Shown piece by piece: positions 33,101 through 50,546 of a stretch of 64,000 bases of DNA. The notes beneath the pieces were generated by a model that ran no database searches, had not been told where the DNA came from, and saw only the letters and a list, made by a program, of their open reading frames with translations. Position 1 is the stretch's first letter. Each line of letters opens with the position of its first letter. Source of the stretch: Laetiporus sulphureus 93-53 (Eukaryota > Basidiomycota > Agaricomycetes > Polyporales > Laetiporaceae); the NCBI RefSeq assembly GCF_001632365.1, contig NW_024468515.1, forward strand, positions 620,597-684,596, read 5' to 3'. The translations under genes and the position numbers were made by a program.

Positions 33101-36100
33101 AGACATGATGTTTGACACATTCTCCCATAGTTGAGTGGTGGACAGCGCGCGAGAGTGGGCCTCGCGCGTGCAGTATACGCTAGGGCCGATCTGTTAGCAT
33201 TCCTTCATTTGTAGTCTGGATCTCATGCTCACCATGCTCGTTGTGGTAGTGTTATATTAGACGACGTGCTTTCTGCTGTGGACTCTCATGTCGCGCGCCA
33301 TGTATTCGGTGAGTTGTGCTGAATTCATCACCTATCCCTGCTGATTCCTATGATGTGTCTTCGTCGACAGATCATGTCATTGGTCCCCAAGGTCTTCTCG
33401 CCACGAAGGCTAGGATCGTTGTGACTAACAGTATCCATTTCTTGAAGCAGTTTGATCACGTCGTATACATCCGTAGAGGCATTATTCTCGAGCAAGGCGC
33501 ATACAGTGAACTGATCAGTAATCCCGAAAGCGAATTCTACAAGCTCTTGTGAGACACTTACCTTCCCTATCTCTTCGTAGCCGGCTGACATTTCAATGTA
33601 TCTGCGATAGAAAAGGGCATGGGAATCCGACAGCTTCTGGAATGTCCACCCCATTCTTCAGAGAGTCGGCAACGCCGTCTTCTGGAGGAGAAACGGCAGT
33701 GGAGCTTACGGACGATCTGATCGAAGTAAAGCTACAGACAGTAGACAGCAAGCTGACCCGACGTAAGAGCTTCGGGAAAGCAACGCTTGTTGACAGTCTC
33801 CCAATTCGCACCGTCTCTGATGGGGCCACGAAAGAGTACAGCGAACATGGTCGAGTCAAGATAGATGTCTACTTGCAGTACATCCAGGCCGCATCGAAAG
33901 CCGGATTTGCATTCTTCGTTCTGTCGATGATCCTGCAGCAGATCACGGCGGTTGCGGGGAACAACACGCTTCGCTCTTGGGGAGAGCACAACTTGAACGT
34001 TGGAGCCAACCGGGATGCGTGGAAGTACCTCCTTGTGTACGGACTGTATTCGTTATCGTCGACTCTGCTCGGAACGGTTGGCGCGATCCTAATATGGGTG
34101 CTGTGCTCCGTAAGGACCTCCAAACGCTTGCACGACTCGGTTAGTGATTGCAGACTCCGGCGTGCATACATCATATTGCTTACTCTGGGTAGATGCTCCA
34201 TGCTGTAATGCACGCTCCGCTGAGTTTCTTTGAATTGACTCCCACCGGACGGTATGTTTTCGATGTCTTCCGATGCACCTACAACTTTTCATGTTTCGAT
34301 GAGATAGGATTCTGAACTTGTTCTCGCGTGATATCTACGTCGTCGATCAAATCATGGCTCGGGTCAGTATACTAATTCTGTGTAAATTCGACTTGCTGAC
34401 GGGTACGTAGGTCATTCAAGGAACAGTGCGGACAACGTGTACGACTGCTATGATCCTCTTCGTTATCGGATATAGTTTCCCGCTCTTCGTGAGTATGCTA
34501 AATGATTCCGTCGTGAATAAAATCTGATGCCGTAGCCAGCTCGTCGCAGTCCCCCCTTTAGCTTGGTTTTATCTCCGAGTGATGATGTATGTTCGAGTCA
34601 TTTCTAAGCGGCCTCTGATAGTGAAACAAACTCCCTAGCTATTACCTCTCGACATCACGCGAGCTGAAGCGTCTCGATGCTGTCTCGAAATCGCCGATCT
34701 TCGCATGGTTCTCGGAGTCGCTCAATGGCGTGTCGACTATCCGAGCATTTGACCAACAGCAAGTGTTCATCTCGAATAATGAACGTCGATTGGATCGCAA
34801 CCAGATTTGCTATCTTCCTAGGTATGTTCCTATCTGGAAATTCGTCACTGTCATTTGACTGAACCACCCCGTAGCATCTCGGTGAACCGGTGGCTCGCAG
34901 TGAGACTTGAGTTTGTAGGCGCAACCATTATCTTCATCGCCGCGACGTTGTCTTTGGTAGCTCTCGTTACAAGCGGCGTCGACGCGGGTCTGGTCGGATT
35001 TGTACTGTCTTATGCATTGAACACAACTGGGTCTCTGGTAAGAGCTACCAACTACCTCTTTGGCTGGTGTTTCGGCTGATGTGCCGCGCAGAACTGGCTC
35101 GTGCGCTCTGCTAGTGAGGTCGAACAAAATATCGTCAGCGTCGAACGCATTCTGCACTACATCCAGCTGGAACCCGAGGCCCCTGATGAGATACCAGGCA
35201 CTGTGCCTGAGAAATGGCCTTCGAAGGGAGAAATTGAGTATCGGTGCGCATTTCAGAAGTTCGTTGCCCTTCATTAGCGTCTGACAGAAAGTACAGAGAT
35301 TACTGCGCTCGTTACCGCCCTGAGCTTGACCTTGCCTTGCAAGACATCAGTGTCAAAATTGTACGTCCGTTTCGCTTCATCTAAATACTAGCTGGCTCAC
35401 TCTGCCACAAAAGAATCACAGCGAAAAGGTAGGAATTTGCGGTAGGACAGGGTCAGGGAAATCAACGGTTAGTCTCAACCGGATGCGGTAGATTCCATGG
35501 TGATCATTGACGGTCACAATGCAGCTTCTCCTTTCCTTGTTCCGCGTTATCGAGCCTGCATCCGGCACGATCTACGTCGATGGTGTGGACATTACAAAAG
35601 TGGGGTTACATGATCGTGCGTCTGGATCCGAAATTCATGCGATAGTTCAGCTGCTTGAGAGACCGATTCTGTTATTTAGTGCGTTCCGCAATATCCATTG
35701 TGCCCCAGAGCCCAGACCTATTCGAAGGGACGATTCGCCAGAACATCGATCCTACAGGTGCATACCAAGATGCCGACATTTGGGTCGCGCTTGGTCAGGT
35801 TGGTCTCCTTTCTTCAAATTTCCTATCACCCGCAACTGACCGCTTTGCTTCTATTTTCAAACCGATTCTCACAGGCACGCCTCAAAGCGTTTATTGAGTC
35901 ATTGCCCGAAGGGCTCGATGCATCGGTGCGAGAAGGAGGATCGTCCATGTCTGCTGGGCAGCGCCAGTTACTGTGCTTCACACGGGCTCTTTTGCGCAGG
36001 GTATGTTCCCTTCTGTTTGAGGAAGGTTCGTGCTTTATTTACCCGAGATCCTGGTTCGTAGTCGAAGATCCTAGTCCTCGACGAAGGTATGTCCATCACA

Positions 36101-36499
36101 CCAACATGCAATCGATGGGAACTGACCCGCGCTCTGATCAGCCACATCCGCTGTCGATTTGGATACGGACAAAGCTATTCAGGAGATCATACGTGGACCA
36201 TTGTTCGCTGATGTGACCATGCTGACAATCGCGTACGTGCATCTCCGTGTCTGCCCTTGAGTGTTCGCCTCACATGCCCTGTTTCGCCATTCACAGGCAT
36301 AGGATCAACACCATCATGGAATCGGATCGAGTTTTGGTACTGAGCGCGGGAAAGGTACGTTCTATTTTCGTCGATGTTCTGGACGATCGTTTGATCAATC
36401 TTTTGCTTCCAGGTCGCCGAGTTCGATGAACCCCAGAAGCTGCTCGCCAACAAGCAGTCTGCGTTCTACTCGTTAGCAGCCGAGGCAGGCTTGGCTTGA
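30165..36499 (+). CDS. Full-length ABCC (MRP/Ycf1-type) transporter
   Basis: An ATP-driven exporter of glutathione conjugates or amphipathic anions, usually vacuolar or plasma membrane. The gene is split by about twenty or more short introns. An N-terminal TMD0 starts at ATG 30165 (MASPACCCGDHEGW, then hydrophobic helices), followed by TMD1 (for example RVRAGLVTAIYQKAL and IKLYAWENAF). NBD1 has Walker A GRVGAGK (intron directly after the Lys, near 32605), LSGGQRARVGLARA (33131) and VILDDVLSAVD (about 33255), so the Walker B glutamate is Asp, the usual degenerate NBD1 of ABCC proteins. TMD2 follows (LSFFELTPTGRILNLFSRD). NBD2 has GRTGSGKST, MSAGQRQLLCFTRALL, ILVLDEATSAVD and TIAHRINTI, all canonical. 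The product ends at 36499. The 3' exons are very short, and exact borders were checked only at motifs. Confidence 0.92.
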
Positions 36500-37390
36500 C
36501 AGGCATGCACCCTACAACGCAACCGTGCGAATATCAATCACAATGAGACCAAGTGGCATGTTGGCGAAGTATCAGCGCACATTCTTTCGGCAGAAGAATC
36601 GATGTGCGAAGTTCGTCTTACCCTTTCTAGGGCTACAATGTTGTAGTAGGTATTGCCGCATGAGTTATACGGAAGTCGGACATCTCTGCTGGACAATTAA
36701 CGGGTCATAGTCATTGTGTATACCACGCATGAATCGCTATTGGGGATTATGGGGTTAACGCGGGCAAAATGAGCAGAGCCTGTTCGCAATTATGCCTGAG
36801 TAGAACAGTGGCCGCTCGCCGCCGTGCCGCCACGAAGATCGGGCGCTTAGACGCATGTACTTCTTGCTGTTGAACAACATCCGCCAGGCCGAGGATTGAC
36901 CGTTAACGTTGACACCATCGGCGGTCACGAACGTTCTGATTAACGGCATCCCATGTGAGCCAGCTGACAAACGCGTCCGAAGCCCGGAAGTACCCATCAC
37001 CCCCTTCTGCGGTCCGTTTAGCTACTGAACGAGATCTGTTAATTTCCCTTGCGCTCGCATTCGATGCGAAGGAATCTCTGTGGTGCTGGCTAGCAATGTA
37101 TTCCTCGCTATGGATAGTCTCTCGGCTTCATTCATCACGATGAGCTTTTCTCTGGCTGCAAAGTCGGACTATACCCGTCCACGGAATACGTCACCCCGCC
37201 GGCTAAGAAGCAGCTCCTCGGAATTTCGTATGTGCGCTCAGGGCCTACATCGTGTTCATGATCAGGTGTCCCAGCGGACGGGCCGCTTGTCCAATGTCTC
37301 CCGTGCCAGAATTGCAAGTGTCCTTAACCAGTCTATTTTGGACGAGCGTGTGCTATCCGATGGAGGTGGATAGAAGAAATGTCGCAAAAA
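36500..37390. other. Intergenic upstream of the xylosidase gene
   Basis: About 890 bases without a supported gene. It should include the ABC transporter terminator and the xylosidase regulatory region. At 37194-37199 the complement reads GCGGGG (fits the SYGGRG CreA consensus), directly next to GGCTAA at 37201-37206 (the ascomycete XlnR motif). Both are short and may be chance. Confidence 0.3.
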
Positions 37391-37398
37391 TATAAAAA
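37391..37398 (+). promoter_or_regulatory. TATA box of the GH3 gene
   Basis: TATAAAAA lies 61 bp before the predicted ATG. This is a good TATA box match and consistent with an inducible secreted-enzyme gene. Confidence 0.55.
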
Positions 37399-37458
37399 TG
37401 ATCTTGCATCGCCCAGAACTTGGAGGACAGCAGGCAGTCCCCTTGATTCTGTCTCGCC

Positions 37459-39903
37459 ATGGGCTTCCTCTCTGCGTTCGTATGCGTCGCTTTGGCCAGT
37501 GGGGCCTTCGCTCAGGCTGCCTTCCCGGACTGTGTCAGTGGGCCTCTCGCCACCACAACAGTCTGCGATATCACTGCAAATCCAGTTGATCGCGCGGCCG
37601 CTTTGGTCAGCCTGTTCACCTTTGACGAAAAGGTTAACAACACTGGCAACACAAGTCCGGGCGTTCCTCGCCTCGGATTACCGGCATATCAGTGAGTTGC
37701 GAAGACTTGTTTCGAGGTGGTTAGCTTGCTTAGCCACCTGCAGATGGTGGCAGGAAGGACTGCACGGTGTCGCGGAGTCACCTGGTGTCTACTTCGCAGA
37801 GTCAGGACCGTTCAGTTACGCGACGTCGTTCCCCCAACCTATCCTCATGAGCGCTGCGTTCGACGACCCCATGATTTACAATATCGCGACGGTCATCAGC
37901 ACAGAGGCGCGTGGCTTCAATAACAACAACCGCTCCGGGGTGCGTTAGACTCCTCAAATTCTAGATTGCACACTAACGTTGGCACTGCAATTGTAGCTCG
38001 ACTTCTGGACGCCCAACATTAACCCGTTCAAGGATCCTCGCTGGGGCCGAGGTAAGTCCGGCGACACCTCTTTCCGTTTGGATGCTCATTCCACGCAGGG
38101 CAAGAAACTCCGGGCGAGGACCCATTCCACCTCCAATCATACGTCTACAATCTGATCACTGGCTTGCAAGGCGGATTAGATCCCGAGTACAAGCGGATCG
38201 TCGCCACATGCAAGCATTTCGCCGCCTATGACCTTGAGAACTGGATGGGCAATGTCCGCTACGGCTTTGACGCTATAGTGTCCATCCAGGACCTTTCCGA
38301 GTTCTACACGCGTTCGTTCAGGACTTGCGCGCGTGATGCGAACGTCGGAGCGTTCATGTGCTCCTACAATGCCGTGAACGGTGTGCCGTCATGCGCGAAC
38401 TCCTACCTGCTGCAGGACATTTTACGCGAGCACTGGGGATGGACGAACGAAGACCAGTGGGTTACCTCCGATTGCGATGCCATTGAAAACATCTATCAAC
38501 CGCACTATTACGCTCCCACTCGTCAATTGACCGTCGCAGATGCTCTCAACGCTGGTGCGGATCTCGATTGTGGCGAGTATTATCCCTTGAACCTCGGCTC
38601 TGCTTACGAGGAAGGCTTGTTCAACGTCTCCACTCTCGACCGCGCTCTCATCCGGTTGTACTCATCGCTCGTCAAGCTTGGCTACTTCGATCCCGCCGAG
38701 AATCAGCCATACCGAAGCATTGGCTGGGAAAACGTAAGCACTCCCGCCGCTGAGGAGCTCGCCTATACCGCCGCTGTCGAAGGCATTACACTTCTCAAGA
38801 ACGATGGCACACTCCCCCTTTCCTCGTCCATCAAATCGATCGCTTTGATTGGTCCTTGGGCCAATGCGACGACTGAGATGCAGGGTAACTATTATGGAGT
38901 GGCGCCCTATCTCATCAGCCCGCTTATGGCGGCGGAGGCGGCTGGCTACACCGTGTACTACGCCACAGGCCCCGGCATCGACGATCCAACGACGTCGTCC
39001 TTCCCTGCTGCCTTTGAAGCCGCTGCCGCCGCAGATGCGATAATTTATGCCGGTGGTATCAATACGGACGTCGAAGCGGAGGGAATGGATCGCTATACGC
39101 TCGACTGGCCGGGCGTTCAGATTGATTTGATCGACTCACTCTCGCAGTTCGGAAAGCCGTTCGTCGTGCTTCAGATGGGCGGTGGCCAGGTAGATGACTC
39201 GTGCATGATCCCAAACGCGGGCGTGAACGCGATTATCTGGGGAGGGTATCCCGGGCAGAGCGGTGGCACCGCGCTGATAGATATCATCATGGGCAAGGTC
39301 GCGCCTGCAGGAAGGCTGCCCATCACACAGTATCCTATTGGCTACGTCTATCAAATCCCGATGACAGACATGTCACTGCGCCCGAGCGCGACGAGCCCAG
39401 GCCGTACGTACATGTGGTACACCGGCACTCCTGTCTTTCCTTTCGGTTACGGCCTGCACTACACGAACTTCACTGCGTCACTCTCGGAGTCCTCGGCGTC
39501 ATCGTACGACATCTCAACGCTCGTTAGCGGCTGTTCTGGCTATGAGCACCTCGACTTGTGCCCCTTCGCCTCGTACACTGTGAACGTTACGAATACGGGC
39601 AACAGTGTTTCATCAGACTTTGTTGCGCTCCTGTTCGTCGCCGGCGAGCATGGACCAGCACCAGTGCCTAACAAAGTCCTCGCCGCGTACAGCCGCCTCC
39701 ATTCCGTTGCGCCACTGTCGAGCCAGACCACCACGCTCAACCTCACTTTAGGGTCCCTTGCTCGGGCCGACAGCTACGGCAACACGATTCTATATCCCGG
39801 AGAGTATGATTTGGTCCTCGACGTCGATGCAAAATCGACCGTAAGCTTCTCACTTACCGGAAATGAGTCAGTGTTGGACTATTGGCCCCAGCCTACAGCT
39901 TGA
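37459..39903 (+). CDS. Secreted GH3 beta-xylosidase
   Basis: Releases xylose from the non-reducing ends of xylo-oligosaccharides outside the cell, completing hemicellulose breakdown. Four exons, 37459-37691, 37744-37939, 37997-38051 and 38099-39903, sum to 2289 nt, 762 residues, normal for fungal xylosidases. The signal peptide is MGFLSAFVCVALASGAFA. The (beta/alpha)8 domain has [38 protein letters not shown] and CKHFAAYDLENW. The nucleophile Asp286 is in VTSDCDAIEN. The second domain follows (GITLLKNDGTLPL), and the C-terminal fibronectin-III-like part starts near GYGLHYTNF. The WxxD...SDC pattern and WWQE loop favour xylosidase over beta-glucosidase, but arabinofuranosidase side activity is possible. 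Several N-glycosylation sites are visible. Confidence 0.93.
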
Positions 39904-40689
39904 GCAGGATGATTGCTAGACCTTGTACATAGTTTTAGTTTCAAAGCAATTGCTGGAGTGCTGTGTATTTCATGATATCTGAACCATGCAGTGTGAGTGT
40001 TGTGGTGGGCATTGTGGTGAGCATCATGGTGAACATCATGGTACCAAAAAATCATTGGTGAGGAATGATATTGTGCACTGAATAAGATCTACCAATATGC
40101 CCAAATCTCATTAGAGAGATGGTGTAAGTTCATCAAGTTTGGCTGTGTGAACATTCAGCTGTGACGAACTCGTCGCACAAGCGAGAGCTGTGACCTTGAA
40201 CTATGTTCTGTCTGCTGAGCTCACCCCTGGACCACAAGGATGTGCAGGCTTGCAGCTCAACAGCTGCAATCGTTGCAGGTTTGTTACCGCAGCTTTTCTC
40301 AGTACATAAACACAGTGAGTATGCATGTAGTTAAGGACATCTATTGATGAATTATTGTTGCACCACAGCCCATAGTAACTGGCTGACTTGTATCCAAACA
40401 TGCCAGTGGCTGAGCCCTATGTTCCAGGATGCCTGGACTGCAGGGCTTCTCCAATGGCATGTTTGCATGCATGCCAGTGTACAGCAAGGCGGCAGTGAGT
40501 GCACAGTGCAATGCCATCGCCGATGCTCACTGGCATATGAACGTGCATTATGATCATGTGATGGCGTCGAGCAAAAAAGAAGTAGCTCAATCGCGAAACG
40601 TCCGGCTTGAACGTGAAGGCATCTGCGTTCGGTATGTGTTCATATCCATCTGCCACAAAGGCGATCTTCTCTAAAATTACATTTCCAAG
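39904..40689. other. Intergenic upstream of the chromodomain gene
   Basis: About 790 bases, AT-richer than the neighbouring genes. It includes a small 12-bp tandem repeat (40000-40046) and several CATGCCAGTG-like words near 40400-40490. No supported gene is seen. Confidence 0.4.
40000..40046 (+). repeat. 12-bp tandem repeat, about four copies
   Basis: Four imperfect tandem copies of a 12-bp unit, TTGTGGTGGGCA, TTGTGGTGAGCA, TCATGGTGAACA and TCATGGTACCA, lie about 100 bp beyond the xylosidase stop codon. Confidence 0.7.
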
Positions 40690-42212
40690 ATGGTACGAAC
40701 ACGTCCCGCAGCCTTGCACCGGCACAAGCACGATGGTCGCGAGCCCGCGCCCCTGCGGTCAAAATGCTCAACTGCTGGGACGACAGCAAACGCCATCGTT
40801 CAGCATACATCAGGATGGGCCCTGAGCACACCGAAACTGCCTCGCCTACGCAATGTGACGATCAATGGGTATCGCTTCCGGGTTTCACCAATCCTGGATG
40901 GCCTTTTCCGGTTCATGGCTGAAAGGCATCGAATCTTCAAGCGTCGGTTAGAAGGTAGACCCGCTCCCTGGACAGATGATCCAATCCTCGCAAGCTATCC
41001 ATTTACCAACGTCTTCCGTGTCTATGACAAGACTACGCAGTTTGTTCTGCACAGGGTCATCCCAGGGGGGAGTCAGGACATGCAGGAGTCGTGCTTCCGT
41101 GTTATGCTGTTCCGACTATTCAATCACACTGGGACCTGGCAGCTCCTGCAGGACCATTTTGGAGAGATCTCCTGGAGACAATTCGATCTTAAACAATACG
41201 AATCAGTGCTTTCTGCTGCCTATGCTGCTCGCCGGACACTGTATGGGCATGCATACATTTTACCTGCACCGAGATTTGGCGCTGGTGGGATCAATGCCGT
41301 CAATCATCTCCGTCTGCTGCAGATAATGATGGACATGAATGCACCGGAACGCCTGAAGAGATTTCAGTATCTCAAGGATGCTCATGGCTGGCTCTGTCTC
41401 TTTCCTAGCTTGAGTGACTTCACTGCTCTCCAGTATGTGAGCTTCTTCAGTTGGCATGTGCGCATGAACTCACAGCATCAATATCCAGGCTCCTTCTTGA
41501 TCTGAACATGCTTCCCCACTTCAAGTGGAATGAAGATGAATGGGTCGCTTTAGGCCCAGGATCTATGCAGTGCATCCAGAAAATCTTTGGTGAGGCCGTC
41601 AAAGGCCATGAATATGAAGCCTTCCAGTACCTTCATGCTACGCAGCATGAGCACTTTTCTCGGCTGGGCTTCACACCAGACCTCCTTCCCCGTCTTCATC
41701 CAGACCATCGTCCTGGTATCACTATGGTAGACCTCGAACATTCACTTTGCGAATGTGAGAAGTACTCCAGAGAACGCTGGCCTAACATCAAAGGAAAGAG
41801 GACCCAGGTCGGAAAATCCACGTTTACACCAAAGAGTATCACCATCACTGCTGATCTACCCGCACACTGGCTTGAACACCCCCCTTCACATGTCGCCACT
41901 CCTCATCGCCCACCTCCCATCCGAGCAGCAGATGGGGAGCCTCCGGAATACGAGGTATCGCACATTGTCGCCGAAAGGGTAACCCGAGACTCGGTGCAGT
42001 ATTTGATCCGCTGGGCTGGCTATGCACCTCATGAAGATACGTGGCAAAATGTGGCAGATCTACAAGGGGCTTCGATGGCTTTGCGCGAATGGCAGTCCTT
42101 CAAAGAGGATATTCATCGCAAGATGGCTGTTTACAAGCATTCAGATAGCATATTTGGTACGTCATCAAGCATATACGCAAAGCAAGGAAGCAGTGGAAAT
42201 AGGAGGCTGTAG
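40690..42212 (+). CDS. 5-hmdU DNA kinase helical-domain-like protein fused to a chromodomain
   Basis: Two exons, 40690-41432 and 41489-42212, joined by a GTATGT...CCAG intron of 56 nt, give 488 residues. Residues about 70-345 resemble the helical domain (Pfam HMUDK_hel, first described within aGPT-Pplase families) of phage enzymes that hypermodify 5-hydroxymethyl-deoxyuridine in DNA. Visible signature: FRFMAERHRIFKRR, PWTDDPIL (93-100), FTNVFR (105-110), then LLLDLNMLPHFKWNEDEW, a GPGS (270-273), and VDLEHSLCECEKY. Residues about 401-452 are a chromodomain: YEVSHIVAERV, VQYLIRWAGYAPHEDTW, with aromatic-cage candidates Tyr402, Trp423 and Trp433. There is no P-loop kinase domain. The splice joins DFTALQ to LLLDLN exactly at the family motif. 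The C-terminal 25 residues may be mis-spliced. Role (DNA base modification or binding, targeted by methylated histone) is an inference, and the family match is from memory. Confidence 0.8.
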
Positions 42213-42467
42213 CGATGAAAGCGTCACACTATCTCAAATTGCTCCAGGTTATCTAGGACTTTAGACTTACATCTCGGCTTAGACATCTCGATCGGATTGG
42301 AATATGCTTTCCCCAGACACCATCAGCAGATGACCAGTGCGTCATTGTGGAAAAAAATTTTGAACGACAAAAAACTTGGTTTTGTTTTTTGAATCTTTTT
42401 TTACATACGTCCTACAAAACGCAGCGAACAACATTGTACACTATGCGGAACCCCAAAGATATTTGGC
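42213..42467. other. Intergenic between convergent genes
   Basis: This gap of 255 bases separates the chromodomain gene from the P450. It contains A- and T-rich runs around 42350-42410, compatible with terminators for both strands. Confidence 0.35.
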
Positions 42468-44491
42468 TCAAGCACAGAACTCTCTGTGCTTCATGCCGAC
42501 CACGCACTTTACAGGCCTGCGGGCCAGAGCATCATGAACGGCGAGCTGCGTCTGCGTCAATAGACGATATGAGCTACGCTGACGTGTCGCACGTACCTCA
42601 GCGTCATCCTCAACGACAAAATGGTAACGATGGAATATGGTTGCAACAATGATATGTAGCTGCATGAGAGCAAGGTTGCGTCCGATGCATGCCCTGTTTG
42701 AACGCACGAAGCGCGAAGTGAGAAACGAGCGCCGAATAATGATGATTGAACAAGTACCTGGGACCGATCGAGAATGGAGCAAACGCGTCCATCATCTGCT
42801 TCTTCCGAGCGCTGTCCGGCTCGATCCATCGCTCCGGACAGAATTGGTGCGCATTTTCGCCCCATACGGCTTCGCTGCGGTGGACAGTATATATGGGAAC
42901 GCTTATCCATGTACCCTCCTTGAAGGTTTGACCGAGTACGGTCATGCCTCCTGGAGGTACGATACGCGGCAGGCCCGCCCCGACGGTTGAGTGAAGTCGC
43001 AAGCCTTCGTCAATGACCGCATCCAAGTATGGGAGGCGTTTGACCACATCATACGGTGCGATGTCTCCATCGATGGACGCAAACGCGCTGTCGAGTTCGG
43101 CTTGCAGCTTTGCTTGTCGATATTGGTCACGAGCGAGGAAGTGGGTGATGGCGCATGTGGTACTACAGAACGAGATCATTACGAGTTTACAAAACAATAG
43201 CCGTGAACACTCACTTAGCAGTAGTATCAGCACCCGCAATGATCAAGGTGAGCGCCTCCGCACTCAACTCCTCTGGATCCATCGGGTTGCCTTCCTCGTC
43301 CCTACCGTCCAACAGCCGTTGGAGCATGTCCTCGCGGGAGTCGGCAGCAGCTAACCTTCGCATGACGGAAGTGATGGCTAGGCTGGCGAGTCTCGTTGCG
43401 GCATCGGACCCTCTGCGAAAGCCCGGAAGCCGTGCAACGAACGGACGAATATAGGCAGGAAGGAACCCAAGCACCGGAGCAATTTCTGTGCGTGCTGTGA
43501 GGGACTCGACAACCGATAAGTCTTCCAGTTCGAGCCCCAACTTCTCAGGTTCCACACCGGAGGACACAAGCGTGAACGCCTGCAGGCCTTTCTGTGGCGA
43601 CTTTGCGATCTTCGTGATATCGTTGCCCGCGCGGAGCATGCCGAAAGGAGAGCCGAACGACAAATCACCTATGCAGGGAGTAGTGGAGTGTATTGATGAA
43701 GCCGTTCCGACAGCACTATACCATGATCGAGACATACCGATAGTATCAAACGACCTAAAGCCGTACCCTAAAGACCGGCATGAGTTCAACCAGATGGTCA
43801 CCGAACAACAGCGGAAGCCGCTACCCACAAGCCATACAACTGAACCACACACGACCGTCTCGTACAGACCACAAGCTTGAACCTTGCCGCCCCGTCATAG
43901 ATTCGCCCTTGGCTGCCTTCTCGACACGTGAACAGAGTGCATCGAATTGCCGCAGCAGCTCGGCTACATGCACGCGTGAAGTGCTCTCGAGCGCACGTAC
44001 GCTTTGCGGTGCGAACATATGAGACTCGACGTGACGTTTGCGTGCGTGCTCCGCGCGTGAGCACGTGTTGAAGACGGTCCGTTTGCGAAAGTTGGAGAAT
44101 GCGTCGTAGAAGGGAGCCTTCATCGCACCGGACGAATGTCCATAGACCGGATTGAATGCATTGGGGTCAGCGACGGAGATGTGGTTCGGCGATAGACGAA
44201 CAAACGGCCCTAGAGGTGCGTTAGTCTAAGACAGTGCTGAAGATGATGATTTGGCTTACCGTGCGTTCGATGGAGTTCTTCCACCGTCTTCGACCAGCGG
44301 CCTCGCTTGATGATCCAGGCCAGCCAAACGCTGGTGAACTTTGCGAAGATAGGACCTGGATACGAGCGAAGTCCATTTGTATTCACAAGGTAGGGCACAA
44401 CGTAGGATAGAAGAATAGCACCCAAAGCCAAGAGAGTCAGATACAGGGGAGAAACGGACATGCTGGTGACCATTTCGTGGATCAAGTCCAT
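42468..44491 (-). CDS. Cytochrome P450 monooxygenase
   Basis: A heme-thiolate monooxygenase anchored in the ER membrane; the substrate is unknown. About seven or eight exons run from ATG 44491 to a stop at 42468. The N-terminus is a membrane anchor ([20 protein letters not shown]) followed by a Pro-rich hinge with YPGPIFAKF. Further motifs are in order: [22 protein letters not shown] (C-helix), YDTIG-like [16 protein letters not shown]-helix [10 protein letters not shown], ExxR in [12 protein letters not shown], and heme loop [14 protein letters not shown], where an intron separates GPR from ACIGR. The C-terminus [13 protein letters not shown] is typical for this fungal group, which resembles benzoate 4-monooxygenase-like P450s. 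The exon covering the segment around 43760-43880 is the least certain. Confidence 0.88.
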
Positions 44492-44832
44492 GTTCACTAG
44501 TTGTCGCCGAAGATTGGCGAGTTGATCATCCAGACTAGCTTGTGAACGACTCTCTTATATCGCTGCACAAGAGGCGCAACAAACAAGAGAAGCTATTTGC
44601 GGCGAGGTCTGTTCGAGAAGGCATGACGTCTCGGTTCGAACGTATATCGTTCACAGGATACCTGACTGAGATGTTTCCATTATCGCGGTCGCCGTCAATA
44701 TAATCCGCTCCAGCATATGAAGAGCATCACAAGACCATTAGCTTCGGCGCCGCATCCTAGAGCGTGTAAGCACGATTAGATACTTTGTAGTCGATGAACC
44801 TGTCCAGCCTCACGTCTCAGTCCGCGATACAA
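44492..44832. other. P450 promoter region
   Basis: About 340 bases between the P450 start codon and the inverted-repeat element. No gene is seen. The P450 promoter should lie here, so the mobile element sits about 340 bp upstream of this gene. Confidence 0.4.
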
Positions 44833-44920
44833 GGCGTGCTCAATTCTTAGAGTTCGGCACGCCAGTTCAGTTCGTCGACCTCAAATACCAAGGGGACGGC
44901 GATGCCGAGCAAATGCCGAG
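44833..44920 (+). repeat. Left terminal inverted repeat
   Basis: 88 bp, reverse complement of 45452-45539 with one mismatch. Near its inner end it carries two direct copies of ATGCCGAG (44902-44909, 44913-44920), which could be transposase binding sites. Confidence 0.9.
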
Positions 44921-45451
44921 AATTACATAAGCAAATGTGGCTGTTGAGATGTCCGGCAGTTAATTCTATCTTTGGGACATTCCTACATTTCTTGTGTGAA
45001 TTGCTGCTTGTGTAAACCCCAAATTGCGATGCGGACATCCCTGAAAAGAAGACTGCACACCCACAATCTTCTCACGGTTTGTGGTGTCCAGCTGCAGACA
45101 ACCTCGGCGGGGATCACAGTGACGAATGGCTGTGTATCTCACTCTCACAAAGTCACAACATAGATGAGGAACAATAATGACATTGACAGCAGCTACTGCA
45201 TGGTCCTGCATATTGCTGTCATCAAATGTGCTGAGATAGTCTGTGTAATGATTGCTTGGAAGCATTTTAACATTCAGGCTAAGCAACTCTGTGCATACAT
45301 GTTGCAATCCATGGTAAACCAGAGCACTAGGGAAGGTGCGACGGGAGATGGCAATAAAAAATCGAGAAAATGTAAAGCAATCCTTCGGAAATAATCTCGC
45401 CACTCCTGTTCCCTGCCTAGCGTTCCCACGAGCCACTTGGCTTACATAATA

Positions 45452-45539
45452 CTCGGCATCTGCTCGGCATCGCCGTCCCCTTGGTATTTGAGGTCGACGA
45501 ACTGAACTGGCGTGCCGAACTCTAAGAATTGAGCACGCC
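45452..45539 (-). repeat. Right terminal inverted repeat
   Basis: 88 bp, partner of the left repeat at 44833-44920 with 87 of 88 identical bases. Confidence 0.9.
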
Positions 45540-45544
45540 TACAA

Positions 45545-46068
45545 GAATTCAGCTCGAGACATACCTAACAGCGAGAGCTGAGCTCCGTCAGAAGCTCATG
45601 ATAGAAATAACTCAACAGACTTCTCCGCTCGATGCGCGTACGACGGACGCGGACAGTCCCATGCAGTGTTCCGATGCGGGAACACACACAAGCGAGCTTC
45701 TGCAGTTCCCACCAGGCCCCTGGCCGCGCGACGCAGCTGACACGATCGCGACGTCTTCTTTACACGTTTGGGGTCGATAATCGCAGTGCAGGGACTTTCG
45801 CGTACGCAGATCTGCGAGGACGGAAAACAAGGAGAGACGAGGCAGCGCATGCACAGACCGCGGGACAGGACCGCGTTCGGGCACGTGCGCTTTACCTCAG
45901 TCTCTTTTAGGAAGGTCTTTCCTGCAAGGCTAAGATCGCTGTGGCCTGGTCCCCAGTGGCGTCTTTGCAAGTTCAAGTGGCCGCAATTTCCTGTCAACTG
46001 CCAGGACCTCTACTTCTTAAAGAGCTCAGTCTATTGGCTGTGTGACAAGTCTGAACATCCGCTAGACA
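45545..46068. other. Intergenic upstream of CDK7/Kin28
   Basis: 524 bases with overlapping open frames on both strands (up to about 130 codons) but no family features. The stretch is taken as the Kin28 promoter and 5' UTR. Confidence 0.4.
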
Positions 46069-47565
46069 ATGGACGCAGTGGAGAAAGCCAACGCCGAAAG
46101 ACAGAAGAGATGGTAAGCTGTGTCTAGCGTGCAGCGATCCTGATATTCACTTGCGAGAAGGGCCAAAGATGCGAAGGTTGGTGAGGGAACCTACGCTGTC
46201 GTATATCGAGGTGTGTCCCCGAATTTCTTCTCTTAACAGGCGGTCGTTCATGGTCTCCGTCAGGCCGCGAGATATCCACCGGCCGAAAGGTGGCTATCAA
46301 GAAGATCAAGGTCGGCCAATTCAAGGATGGCCTGGACATGTCAGCTATACGCGAGGTCAAGTATCTGCGAGAGCTGAAACATCCGAACGTCATCGAGGCG
46401 AGCCACTCATACCTTCCATTAGCATTAAGTCTCATACGATAGACCGAATAGCTACTGGACGTATTTTCCTCTAAAACAAATCTGAATCTTGTCCTGGAGT
46501 ACTTGGACACAGACCTTGAGCTTGTCATCAAAGACCGGTCACTGGTCTTCCTCCCCGCAGATATCAAGAGCTGGATTGCTATGACGTTCCGTGGCTTGGA
46601 GTTCTGCCACCGGAATTTTATTTTGCACCGCGTTCGTCGCATCCCTCCAAACTATAGGCGTATCAGTATGACTCACCGCCGTTACGAAACAGGACTTGAA
46701 GCCGAACAACTTGCTCATCGCATCGGATGGGCAGCTCAAGCTTGCCGATTTCGGCCTCGCGCGAGAGTTCGCAGACCCTGGGTACAAGATGACATGTCAG
46801 GTCATCACGCGGTTCGCCACGCTCGCTCTTACGTCCGTGCTATCTCTCACCCTCGGTTCTCAGATGGTACCGTCCGCCGGAGCTTCTGTTCGGCTGTCGC
46901 TATTACAGCACCGCAGTCGACATCTGGTCCGTGGGATGTATCTTCGCCGAACTCATGCTGCGCACGCCTTACCTTCCAGGAGAGTCTGACATGGATCAGC
47001 TGAAGACGACCTTCCGGGCACTCGGGACACCGACCGAAGAAGAGTGGCCTGTACGTCAACCAACGTTATATTGGGGGGTCTCGATTCACTGAGACATCAT
47101 TCAGGGCCACACGAAGTTGCCGGACTATGTTCCTGTGGGACTGTTTCCCCGGACGCCCCTTCGAGACCTCTTTACCGCCGCTACTGCTGACTGTCTCAAC
47201 CTTCTCAGCAAATGCTTGATATATGAACCTGGTCGGCGGATCAGCGCAAGAGAGGTGAGCAGTCCGACACATCGTCAGCAGCTCTCATAATCATCGGCGA
47301 TTCGATCCAGGCTCTCAATCACCCGTATTTCTTCGCATTGCCTTATCCTACTCATCCTTCTAAACTTCCCAAGCCGGTCGCAAAGACGAGTTCGAATTTG
47401 CCACTCGAAGAAGTGGACGGTAACGTTGACTTCAGCGGTCCCGGCCCTGGCGTGAAGGCCAACCCACCGAGCAAACTGAAGCGCAGGCTTTCTTCCGACG
47501 AGGTCGACGGCCGGTCAGTAGTGCGGAAACTCGACTTCACGCAACACAGGCAAGCACAGTCATAG
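46069..47565 (+). CDS. KIN28: Cyclin-dependent kinase 7 / Kin28 (TFIIH kinase)
   Basis: The CDK-activating and RNA polymerase II CTD Ser5 kinase of TFIIH, partner of cyclin H and Mat1. About eight exons are present. Kinase motifs in order: [12 protein letters not shown] (Gly loop), [14 protein letters not shown] (catalytic Lys), [19 protein letters not shown] (PSTAIRE-equivalent helix of CDK7), [23 protein letters not shown] (HRD formed across an intron), [16 protein letters not shown] and [14 protein letters not shown] (T-loop). These are followed by [14 protein letters not shown] and [11 protein letters not shown]. The GRITSARE-like lobe end and a Lys/Ser-rich tail complete it. The DMSAIRE helix distinguishes CDK7 from CDK1 and Pho85 kinases. 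An ATG at 46069 starts [15 protein letters not shown]. All catalytic residues are present. Confidence 0.94.
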
Positions 47566-47956
47566 GAGGAGGTCTGAAGGAGGGGGTAATACACAGAGGA
47601 GCACAACACGTTCACTCCAATTCCACAAGCAGCGATGGGACGGCACGTTTATGTACAATACAAATACACTATCGATCTAGTAAAGATATGTTCTTCCAAA
47701 TCCGAGAAAAATATGAGCAGTCTAAGTACAGGGCAATTGGAAGCAAAAAAAAACGCGGGCGAGTCACTACACTTACCATGGAGTCCGGCATGCAATGCAT
47801 CTCTCGGCATGAGGCCTACTGGACAGCGAGCACGTCGAGCTCCCCATCGCAACCGTTGGCCTCGCCTTGCCAGCAGCAGCAAAACTGAAACCAGCAACGC
47901 GAACAACCTGCGACCTCTGCACACTTGTCGCCTCAAAGTCGAGGCACTTCACTTGC

Positions 47957-50546
47957 TCAGCATCCGGGGAGAGGGCAAGACGCGACAAGAGAACCGGGGA
48001 AGTCGAACTTCGGCAAAGCAGCATCCTCCACATCAGTGGCAGCTTGCATCGAATCGAGTCTCGCAAGCGGAGGCAATTCAGGCAGTAACGGTATGAAGCG
48101 GTACTGAGGTAGTTCACTTGGAGCGCACGCCTTTGCAACCGACTTCGAGTCGTCAAGATGTTCCCGTGCGGGAAGTGCTGATTCGGCTTGGGGAACGGAA
48201 ATAGCTGCGATAGCGGTACTTGGTACTGAGGTGATCGCGGACGGCACAGAGATAGGTGCGAGAGCAGCCGCAGGCTCACTCGGTGCAGGGGTGGATGCAG
48301 GCGAAGTAGCCGTAGATGAGGCGGGTGGGAACGGAAGAGACGCGGATGGAGCAGGGGTAAGTTCTGCAGCCGCTGCAGGTGTTGTTTCGAGTGCAGGAAG
48401 CGGAGAAGCACTCGTGGCTGCGCTGACCGTCTCGTTCTCATTCTCTTCTTCCTCGGGTTCTGCCTGGATGCTGTACCGTAGTTTCGAGGGCTCTTTCGGA
48501 GCCGTAGACTTCAACGCAGCATAACCGAGTCCCTTCGACGGTTCGCCCTTCGAAGTTTGTGACGAACCTGCGGACGTATCGCTGGATGACGCATCGGTTG
48601 GAGAAGTACTTCTGCTGTAGGTCTCCGGCTCGACGACCTCTGAAGGCTGCATATAGCCCAACTCTTCGCCGGAAGCAGGAACGTTGTCGATCTCTTCCAC
48701 GGTCACCGCGACTGACTTTGCTCGTTCAACCCTGCTGGCAACGCGATCGGCAGTCGTCTTTCGCTTTTTGAGAGCAGGCCGGTCCTCTTCCTCCTCTGCT
48801 TCTTCCGTAAGAATGATGATTTCGTCTGCTTCCGGAGCAGCTGCGTTTCGATCGGAAGTCAGTAGTTCCGGAGGCGGCCTTGATCGCTTGCTACCCTGCA
48901 AGAAGTCAGCGATATGTACACATATCAGCTATGAGGGATAGGATAGGATTTACCTTCGGGACAGTGCTTTCGATGATCTCTTGCATGGTGGGAGGCCTTT
49001 CTTGCGCTTCCGCAGAAGGTGCCTCGGCTGCGGGTGCCCCAGCTGCTGCTTCGGCAGCAGCTTTGGCGGCGGCTTCAGCGGCTTCCCTCTGCCTACGCTT
49101 CTCGGATCGGTGTCCCTCTATGAATCGCTGCTTAGGTGTTCTGGGCTTGGGAAGGGCAGCGATCACTCTGTATTTGTTCGGATATTGGTGAAGTTGTCGT
49201 CCCATGAGACGTCCAAAGGGGTCGTCGGGTGAGAGCACATATTGTCCCACAGGTTGGTCCGCTGCTAGCACCGCAGCTGCAATTCTGGCCGCTTCAGTCG
49301 ACCGCGAAGACTCGCCCGGCAAGTTCGATCCAGCAGGACGTGGTCGTGGAGGCAGATCAGGAAACGCGTCAGGAGGAAGCCCGTAGAGACTATTCATGCG
49401 CTCGTATATCGAACGCTGTGAATCTAATACCGATGGAGCAGATTTACTCGGACCATCCTGTGGAACGATGTCAAAGCAGGTATATGTCATGACCACCGTT
49501 ACACGCACGTTATTTCCTGCTCGTTTGCTTTCCGAGCCAGACGCAGCCTTCTTTGAATACCAAGTTTCAGGTGGCTTCCAGAAGCCTTGCTGAATTTGCT
49601 CCTCCACGGTCAGGCCTCCTAAGATGCAGACTGGGCCATTGGGGTTATACGGTAGCATTTGTGTGGCCCTAGCTTGGGCCTCCTTCTCCTCGCGTTCAGC
49701 TTTTTCGGCAGCCGCTTTACGCCAGTCGAAGCTCTTGAATCCCAAATCCTCCTTCTCGGGCGGCATCCGCGCGTTCGAAGGAATATACCCTGTACAGATG
49801 TCGTTCATTGCAAACTGGGCATCACAGGAATAAGACGAACGTACCTTTTCCCACCGACGATTTTGCCTTGACTCCCGCGAGCTCTATGTCGCCAAGACGC
49901 TCGTCACCCTTACGCTTCAGATATTCGATCACCTCCGGATTCAGTTCACCCTTGGCTTGGAGCTCGCTGAGTATCTGGGATGCAGTCTGGCGCAAAGGCA
50001 AACGCATTGACACACGCGGTACCGAGACTTGCAAGGGTGGAAGAGGAACTTGTGCTTGTGCGGCAGGCAGAGCGAGAGATTGTGTGCCGAATGAACCAGG
50101 AATATGAAAGGATGATTGTTGCGAACTCTCGGCTTGTTGCGAATTCTGGACTTGCTGCGAACTCTGAGCTTGTGTCGAAAGCTGGGTTTGTTTGAATTAG
50201 AACTTAAAGTGAACAAAATCGCTAAAAAGAACAAACCTCGTCACCGCGTTGTGCGAGCGTGGACGCGGGAGTTATCGGCGCAGAACGCGGAGCTTCTCCC
50301 TCATCTTCGCTCTCGCTTAGGCGGTCGTCATCATCGACCTTTCTGCTAAAGCGGCGTGGATCGATGTAGCTGAGGATCTTCTTGAGACTCCATGAGCCCT
50401 TCTACGAAAGGTATTAGCACGAGGACAGGGGGGGATGTGCGAGGGTGGCATACTGATTTATGCGATTCTTCTTTGCGATGGTAAGGCAAGGAGCTTTCAG
50501 CGCGTGCCTCCTTGCGGCTATCGACTGTACGTTTGACAAAGTTCAT
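47957..50546 (-). CDS. Uncharacterised nuclear-looking protein, Ala/Glu/Pro rich
   Basis: I do not recognise this gene. About five exons run from ATG 50546 (MNFVKRTVDSRKEAR) to a stop at 47957. The order is a basic start and KGSWSLKKILSYIDPRRF; an acidic stretch; a Gln/Ser-rich stretch (SQQ repeats near 50110-50170); a probably helical segment QILSELQAKGELNPEVIEYL; a compact conserved-looking block (FKSFDWRKAAAEKAER, then GPVCILGGLTVEEQIQQGFW); an Ala-rich helix (about 49010-49090); an acidic cluster before KKRKTT (possible nuclear signal near 48760); and a long Ser/Pro/Ala low-complexity tail. The block with ILGGLTVEEQIQQGFWKPP is the best query for homology. Composition suggests a chromatin or transcription regulator, which is inference only. 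Confidence 0.65.

Follow-up and report, generated by a model that had tools for sequence, protein, structure and literature searches.

A basidiomycete protein that joins a HMUDK_hel domain of bacterial kinship to a chromodomain, with a candidate role at DNA bases in silent chromatin

We analysed 64,000 nucleotides of the fungus Laetiporus sulphureus 93-53 (contig NW_024468515.1, positions 620,597 to 684,596 of the forward strand; hereafter the window) and focus on one gene in it, which encodes a 488-amino-acid protein in two exons on the + strand at window positions 40690-42212. The protein, HMUDK_hel-Chromo, joins a helical domain of the HMUDK_hel family to a C-terminal chromodomain. Exon 1 (40690-41432, +) encodes residues 1-247, comprising an N-terminal tail and most of HMUDK_hel, which starts at about residue 67. 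After a 56-bp intron (41433-41488, +, GTATGT...CAG), exon 2 (41489-42212, +) supplies the last third of HMUDK_hel (LLLDLN...GPGS...LCECEKY), a linker, the chromodomain (41949-42095, +, residues 402-450) and the stop codon. An earlier annotation made from the letters of the window (the original prediction) had described such a fusion, and we find the protein at the position and with the number of exons that it gave.

The intron is one of eight in-frame joins, chosen because it restores the motif QLLLDLN, split after the Q, that is seen in relatives. The models of five relatives (P0004, P0040, P0049, P0053 and P0056) leave an intron unspliced at the matching place, and that of P0059 apparently does the same. 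An M?R beginning common to 33 of 67 fungal relatives lends partial support to the start at 40690. The public protein of the same strain (P0001, LAESUDRAFT_735043) matches ours at 97% identity over 92% query coverage, with the differences confined to both ends of the gene model: the public model (window 40435-42212) departs from ours in its first exon and at its 3' splice. It is likely a model error. Our start and intron fit the relatives better. The disagreement at both ends could be taken as a sign that two neighbouring genes had been wrongly joined. This explanation is refuted at the DNA level and its probability is negligible, because one open exon carries parts of both domains: a 264-amino-acid open frame (41418-42212) takes in the last third of HMUDK_hel together with the entire chromodomain, and both domains recur in 62 of the 67 relatives. 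The fusion is thus secure as DNA, and the question of whether the chromodomain belongs to a separate transcript is answered, at the DNA level only, by the open frame it shares with the end of HMUDK_hel.

A Pfam scan of the protein returned only these two domains, both above the curated cut-offs: HMUDK_hel (PF18723, residues 67-350, profile positions 2-281 of 281, E=1.2e-108, score 363 bits, cut-off 25) and Chromo (PF00385, residues 402-450, E=9.3e-10), which confirms both predicted assignments. In the source genome the HMUDK_hel profile match (C6:661484-662071) falls within exon 1. The first domain also matched phrog_2396 in PHROGs (E=2.3e-46), a family with no function assigned there, while five HMUDK_hel proteins among ten proteins scanned had no match in NCBIfam. 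HMUDK_hel corresponds to aGPT-Pplase1, a family known from the hypermodification of thymidine in phages. Across 22 phage, bacterial and fungal sequences, all 16 invariant alignment columns are kept in the window protein, the polar ones being R79, D97, N107, R110, D113, Y189, D252, C335 and E336 in its numbering. A Walker A search of the protein was negative, in agreement with the predicted absence of a P-loop; a candidate hidden P-loop in the linker, GKRTQVGKST, misfits Walker A and is not common to the relatives compared.

The predicted fold of HMUDK_hel appears to resemble that of helix-hairpin-helix (HhH) glycosylases, and an HhH DNA-glycosylase-like helical fold is the one proposed for the family. 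Because searches of the PDB with the whole P0001 model mostly returned chromodomains, we searched again for the helical domain with the model of a bacterial homologue. Its best-ranked structural neighbour was QNG1, in complexes with queuosine and queuosine 5'-monophosphate, and it also lay near 8z2m, the solved phage glycinyltransferase acting on 5-phosphomethyl-deoxyuridine (5-PmdU). Sequence kinship between HMUDK_hel and amino acid:DNA transferases (ADDT) was not detected in a weak test with two ADDT rows only. A viral structure library gave nine matches with E<0.001, two of them unnamed; the names given to the others are 5-hydroxymethyl-deoxyuridine (5-hmdU) DNA kinase (SP10, 637 amino acids), HMUDK_hel-containing protein (phiRSL1, phiW-14 and others) and Pplase1.

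For the chromodomain, the nearest solved structures by sequence are those of Chp1 (3g7l, E=4e-9) and Clr4 (1g6z, E=1.1e-8). Its model superposes on 3g7l, an entry whose title mentions trimethylated lysine 9 of histone H3 (H3K9me3), with a root-mean-square deviation of 0.9 (Foldseek) or 1.1 (VIA), and the structures matched by the P0001 model include plant ZMET2 in complex with an H3K9me2 peptide. The residues Y402, W423 and Y426, which we presume to be the methyl-lysine cage positions, lie in columns that are aromatic in 47/47, 46/47 and 47/47 rows. The source genome holds two Pre-SET matches and seven matches to the C5 DNA-methylase profile, and H3K9 methylation is therefore likely to be available in this fungus. 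From the sequence, fold and cage residues together we infer that the chromodomain docks on H3K9-methylated nucleosomes; the predicted targeting to chromatin is supported as the natural interpretation.

The two-domain protein is widespread in basidiomycetes. Among the best 120 of 347 and the best 120 of 228 matches listed by two protein searches, fungal relatives include Trametes, Ganoderma, Sparassis, Lactarius, Russula, Heliocybe, Neolentinus, Jaapia and Punctularia, as well as Clathrus, Hysterangium, Ramaria, Rhizoctonia, Lentinula, Ustilago, Kalmanozyma, Pseudozyma and Thecaphora. These genera belong to the Polyporales, Russulales, Gloeophyllales, Jaapiales, Corticiales, Phallales, Hysterangiales, Gomphales, Cantharellales and Agaricales and to the smuts. 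When the 67 fungal members other than short or partial entries were scanned with Pfam, HMUDK_hel was found in every one and Chromo in 62; a dedicated profile seeded with 46 members and the window protein raised the latter count to 66, leaving a Rhizoctonia protein (P0069) as the sole exception. Precomputed domain calls give the same architecture for many of the listed fungal proteins. Heliocybe and Neolentinus have two copies each, and a 949-amino-acid model from Lenzites (P0121) carries a DnaJ domain in addition to HMUDK_hel-Chromo, perhaps as a fused gene model. A literature search of partial coverage found no published account of the fungal fusion; the abstract of Iyer 2013 is said to name basidiomycetes among the holders of such systems, and the fusion may already be in print. 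The HMUDK_hel family itself is known.

We then asked where the fungal domain came from. HMUDK_hel matches occurred in 467 of 50,697 phage records, and the 40 listed were all below 29% identity, versus 40% for a Streptomyces protein among the matches listed and up to 38.7% for plasmid-borne bacterial copies. Fungal rows stayed together both in a FastTree tree of 283 HMUDK_hel domain rows and in an IQ-TREE tree of 87 of 88 chosen rows (one short row was dropped; midpoint-rooted for drawing, with no root inferred). In the IQ-TREE tree they form one side of a branch with support 100/99 and group, again at 100/99, with 13 bacterial rows, of which those with a named source are Actinomycetota. This group contains 0 of the 18 viral rows, and 4 of the 18 lie among other bacterial rows. 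Both the identities and the tree placement disfavour a direct phage origin. Horizontal gain from bacteria is supported, so the horizontal origin claimed in the original prediction stands; the phage as immediate source is not supported.

Within the fungi, Polyporales, Russulales and a Phallales-Hysterangiales-Gomphales group each received 100/99 and the smuts 100/100. The tree largely tracks fungal orders, and the gain looks old from these sequences; because branching among the orders is partly open, one early gain and a few fungus-to-fungus transfers are indistinguishable. In the FastTree tree, 17 of 74 IMG/VR rows fall inside the bacterial-fungal part, and L018, a 52.9-kb IMG/VR contig, has a copy that shares 69% identity with the Streptomyces protein. 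Copies of bacterial type may thus travel on viruses, or this contig may be mislabelled host DNA. Because some IMG/VR contigs carry such copies, a viral vehicle for the bacterial-type gene into fungi is possible.

In bacteria, HMUDK_hel belongs to a recurrent cassette. We examined the best 80 of at least 496 confirmed candidate loci, a set biased to the Streptomyces query and including 23 loci with less than 5 kb on one side of HMUDK_hel, and counted neighbours by profile search of six-frame translations with cassette profiles seeded from the same 80 loci. Within 6 kb of HMUDK_hel lay genes for helix-turn-helix (HTH) proteins (60 loci), an ImmA/IrrE peptidase (60), a thymidylate-synthase-like protein (60), a MazG_C-type protein (63) and an acyl-carrier-like protein (41); a dCTP deaminase-like protein was also seen. 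In the 57 loci that have 5 kb of flanking sequence on each side the counts were 45 for ImmA, 46 for the thymidylate-synthase-like protein, 45 for HTH and 47 for MazG_C. A first clustering of the neighbours had given lower counts than this profile search. The thymidylate-synthase-like family (about 260-270 amino acids; for example L176:6417-7193 and L016:5953-6765) owes this assignment to a Nostoc annotation and a reading of its motifs; a two-row alignment query found no solved relative, and two members scanned had no Pfam match.

A second bacterial setting (L163, L166, L170-L173) combines HMUDK_hel with Nmad2, a ThsB-type TIR protein and a SLOG (LD_cluster2)-TIR protein, and in some cases an HsdR-like protein. 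Scanned over whole loci, Nmad2, ThsB-type TIR or SLOG-TIR genes appeared in 15 of the 80, and none of the profiles matched in 5 of the 80. Annotated plasmids have similar, sometimes incomplete, neighbour sets. On a Gloeothece plasmid (L017:114-4024) the annotations read, in a row, CBASS cGAMP-activated phospholipase, nucleotide kinase domain (the HMUDK_hel match), NTP pyrophosphohydrolase family and TIR; a Mycobacterium intracellulare plasmid has none of the cassette genes by annotation. By analogy, the bacterial cassette resembles predicted anti-phage nucleotide-modification immune systems. A 2026 paper treats aGPT-Pplase, MazG and MazG-C as predicted but unvalidated defence domains, and reports 42 of 94 tested units as protective, with 5-hydroxymethyluracil kinase and thymidylate synthase among the newly validated domains (PMC13092281); this kinase may or may not be of the same family as HMUDK_hel.

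The nucleotide enzymes in these cassettes (thymidylate-synthase-like, MazG_C and dCTP deaminase-like) and the QNG1 complexes at the top of the structural ranking are what one would expect if the fungal protein worked on free nucleotides or nucleosides, for instance in clearing 5-hydroxymethyl-deoxyuridine, with the chromodomain merely placing it in the nucleus. We consider this improbable, as the chromodomain has been retained in 62 of 67 relatives together with its aromatic cage columns, and the phage copies sit in clusters for hypermodification at the level of DNA. In phage PaMx11, HMUDK_hel is a separate gene (gp50) that adjoins a P-loop kinase-like gene (gp49) and a thymidylate synthase homologue (gp51), with gp46, the solved 5-PmdU glycinyltransferase 8z2m, close by; gp49 itself scored barely above the cut-off for AAA_33 and under it for HMUDK_HMUD1. 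For SN1, an M6-type cassette of pyrimidine hydroxymethylase, Nmad5, aGPT-Pplase1, nucleotide kinase, radical S-adenosylmethionine (rSAM) enzyme, pyridoxal phosphate (PLP) enzyme and aGPT-Pplase2 is given in the genome report (PMC9476957). Extending this phage gene context to the fungal protein suggests 5-hydroxymethyluracil (5hmU) in DNA as its substrate base. As a chemical precedent, treating 5hmU templates with 5-HMUDK lowered transcription in vitro, and the authors of that work speculated on a role as epigenetic writer or in defence (PMC6457204).

The same phage arrangements can be read in another way, in which the fungal protein is a reader or sensor whose helical domain binds, by flipping, a pyrimidine that is modified or damaged within H3K9-methylated chromatin, performs no chemistry on it and recruits other factors. 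That HMUDK_hel is encoded in PaMx11 beside a separate kinase-like gene, and that the SP10 match of 637 amino acids is named a 5-hmdU DNA kinase, looks as if the domain provided base recognition; the fungal protein lacks a P-loop, and an HhH-like fold, as predicted, would suit base flipping. However, the polar residues that are invariant among phage, bacterial and fungal sequences resemble an active site, and the structural neighbours of the fold are enzymes. We regard a pure sensor as somewhat unlikely.

The surroundings of the fungal gene bear on a further possibility, that it is selfish or transposon-borne and uses its chromodomain for insertion targeting as chromoviruses do. About 2.6 kb downstream lies an element with terminal inverted repeats (44832-45540; 104-nt arms, 95% complementary) that has seven further near-full copies in the assembly at 98-99% identity and so appears to have amplified recently; the fresh element noted in the original prediction is real. 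Chromodomain Gypsy elements are known in fungi (PMC2864245), and fungal TET/JBP genes are carried on transposons (PMC12730594). Yet HMUDK_hel-Chromo is single-copy in the 38.6-Mb assembly, its tree largely follows fungal orders, Pfam finds no transposase or integrase domain in it, and ordinary genes stand on both sides, GH3 on one and P450 on the other, with the P450 gene between HMUDK_hel-Chromo and the element. Transposon cargo is accordingly disfavoured, to the point of being very unlikely, and the accessory, mobile-element setting that had been proposed for the gene is not borne out. No other inverted repeat of at least 20 nt was found in window 36000-50000. A tandem array of an 18-bp unit in 4.3 copies occupies 50116-50192. 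KDZ transposases, a group in which TET/JBP genes of fungi occur (PMC12730594), gave 41 matches in the source genome, and many of these contain stops.

We favour, tentatively and at slightly less than even confidence, the interpretation that HMUDK_hel-Chromo is a bacterial-derived, base-flipping enzyme of the HMUDK_hel / aGPT-Pplase1 class, tethered to H3K9-methylated chromatin, that handles DNA bases of the 5-hydroxymethyl-pyrimidine type. This interpretation builds on the identities of the two domains, their fusion, conservation and single copy, the bacterial kinship and the predicted folds. In it, an actinobacterial-type copy from a defence-like cassette, as the tree and gene context suggest, would have been joined to a chromodomain that docks on H3K9-methylated nucleosomes in the nucleus. 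The HhH-glycosylase-like helical domain would then flip and act on a base of the 5-hydroxymethyl-pyrimidine type in the neighbouring DNA; judged by the phage pathway, this base would most likely be 5-hydroxymethyluracil. The protein would have been kept across basidiomycetes, most plausibly to silence or police transposon-rich chromatin. The missing pathway is its weak point. No P-loop 5-hmdU kinase is present in the window protein, the adjoining genes being GH3 and P450, and uncalibrated searches of the source genome gave no match for the P-loop kinase HMUDK_HMUD1, ADDT, MazG_C, Tet_JBP or 2OG-FeII_Oxy_6, which for the last two does not establish absence. Of the original interpretation, the domains, their fusion, the lack of a P-loop, the horizontal origin and, as the natural reading, the targeting to chromatin are supported; direct phage descent and the accessory mobile setting are not supported.

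A bolder proposal, which we think doubtful but worth stating, is that basidiomycetes run a histone-guided pathway in heterochromatin, assembled from a bacterial anti-phage component, that hypermodifies bases or keeps watch on modified ones; the chromodomain would bring HMUDK_hel to H3K9-methylated nucleosomes, and HMUDK_hel would write or handle a thymine- or uracil-derived base there. If true, this pathway would parallel plant chromomethylase, with thymine in place of cytosine, and bacterial immunity would have been enlisted in the defence of a fungal genome; the base handled in heterochromatin would be one not known from fungi. The gene also lets one trace how part of a defence-like bacterial cassette became a nuclear gene that basidiomycete orders have retained. 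The pairing of HMUDK_hel with a reader of H3K9-methyl type raises the testable question of whether silent chromatin in mushrooms bears a DNA mark other than on cytosine, and hints that these fungi might mark the bases of their silent DNA, or police them.

Among known systems, the phage HMUDK_hel / aGPT-Pplase1 proteins (PaMx11 gp50, SP10, phiW-14) share the Pfam family, the invariant residues and the predicted fold with the fungal protein, which differs in adding a chromodomain, in having no adjoining kinase, hydroxymethylase or amino-acid transferase, and in grouping with bacterial and not phage sequences in the IQ-TREE tree. The bacterial cassette provides its nearest sequence relatives (at most 40% identity over the domain among the matches listed) and its neighbours in the tree; in contrast to the cassette, the fungal locus has HMUDK_hel alone, with GH3 and P450 as flanks and without HTH, ImmA, thymidylate-synthase-like or MazG_C genes. 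Fungal TET/JBP dioxygenases are other putative basidiomycete DNA-base enzymes (PMC12730594 and PMC8889193), but they are of another family and often transposon-borne; the uncalibrated search of the source genome for Tet_JBP was empty, as noted above. Chp1 and Clr4, the closest solved chromodomains, have the cage columns conserved, whereas the fungal chromodomain is fused to a DNA-base domain. Chromodomain-bearing DNA enzymes are known in plants as the chromomethylases, which methylate cytosine. With these, exemplified by ZMET2, HMUDK_hel-Chromo would share, by architecture, a design idea, a DNA-base enzyme equipped with a chromodomain, although the catalytic domains are unrelated and Pfam finds no C5 DNA methylase domain in the window protein.
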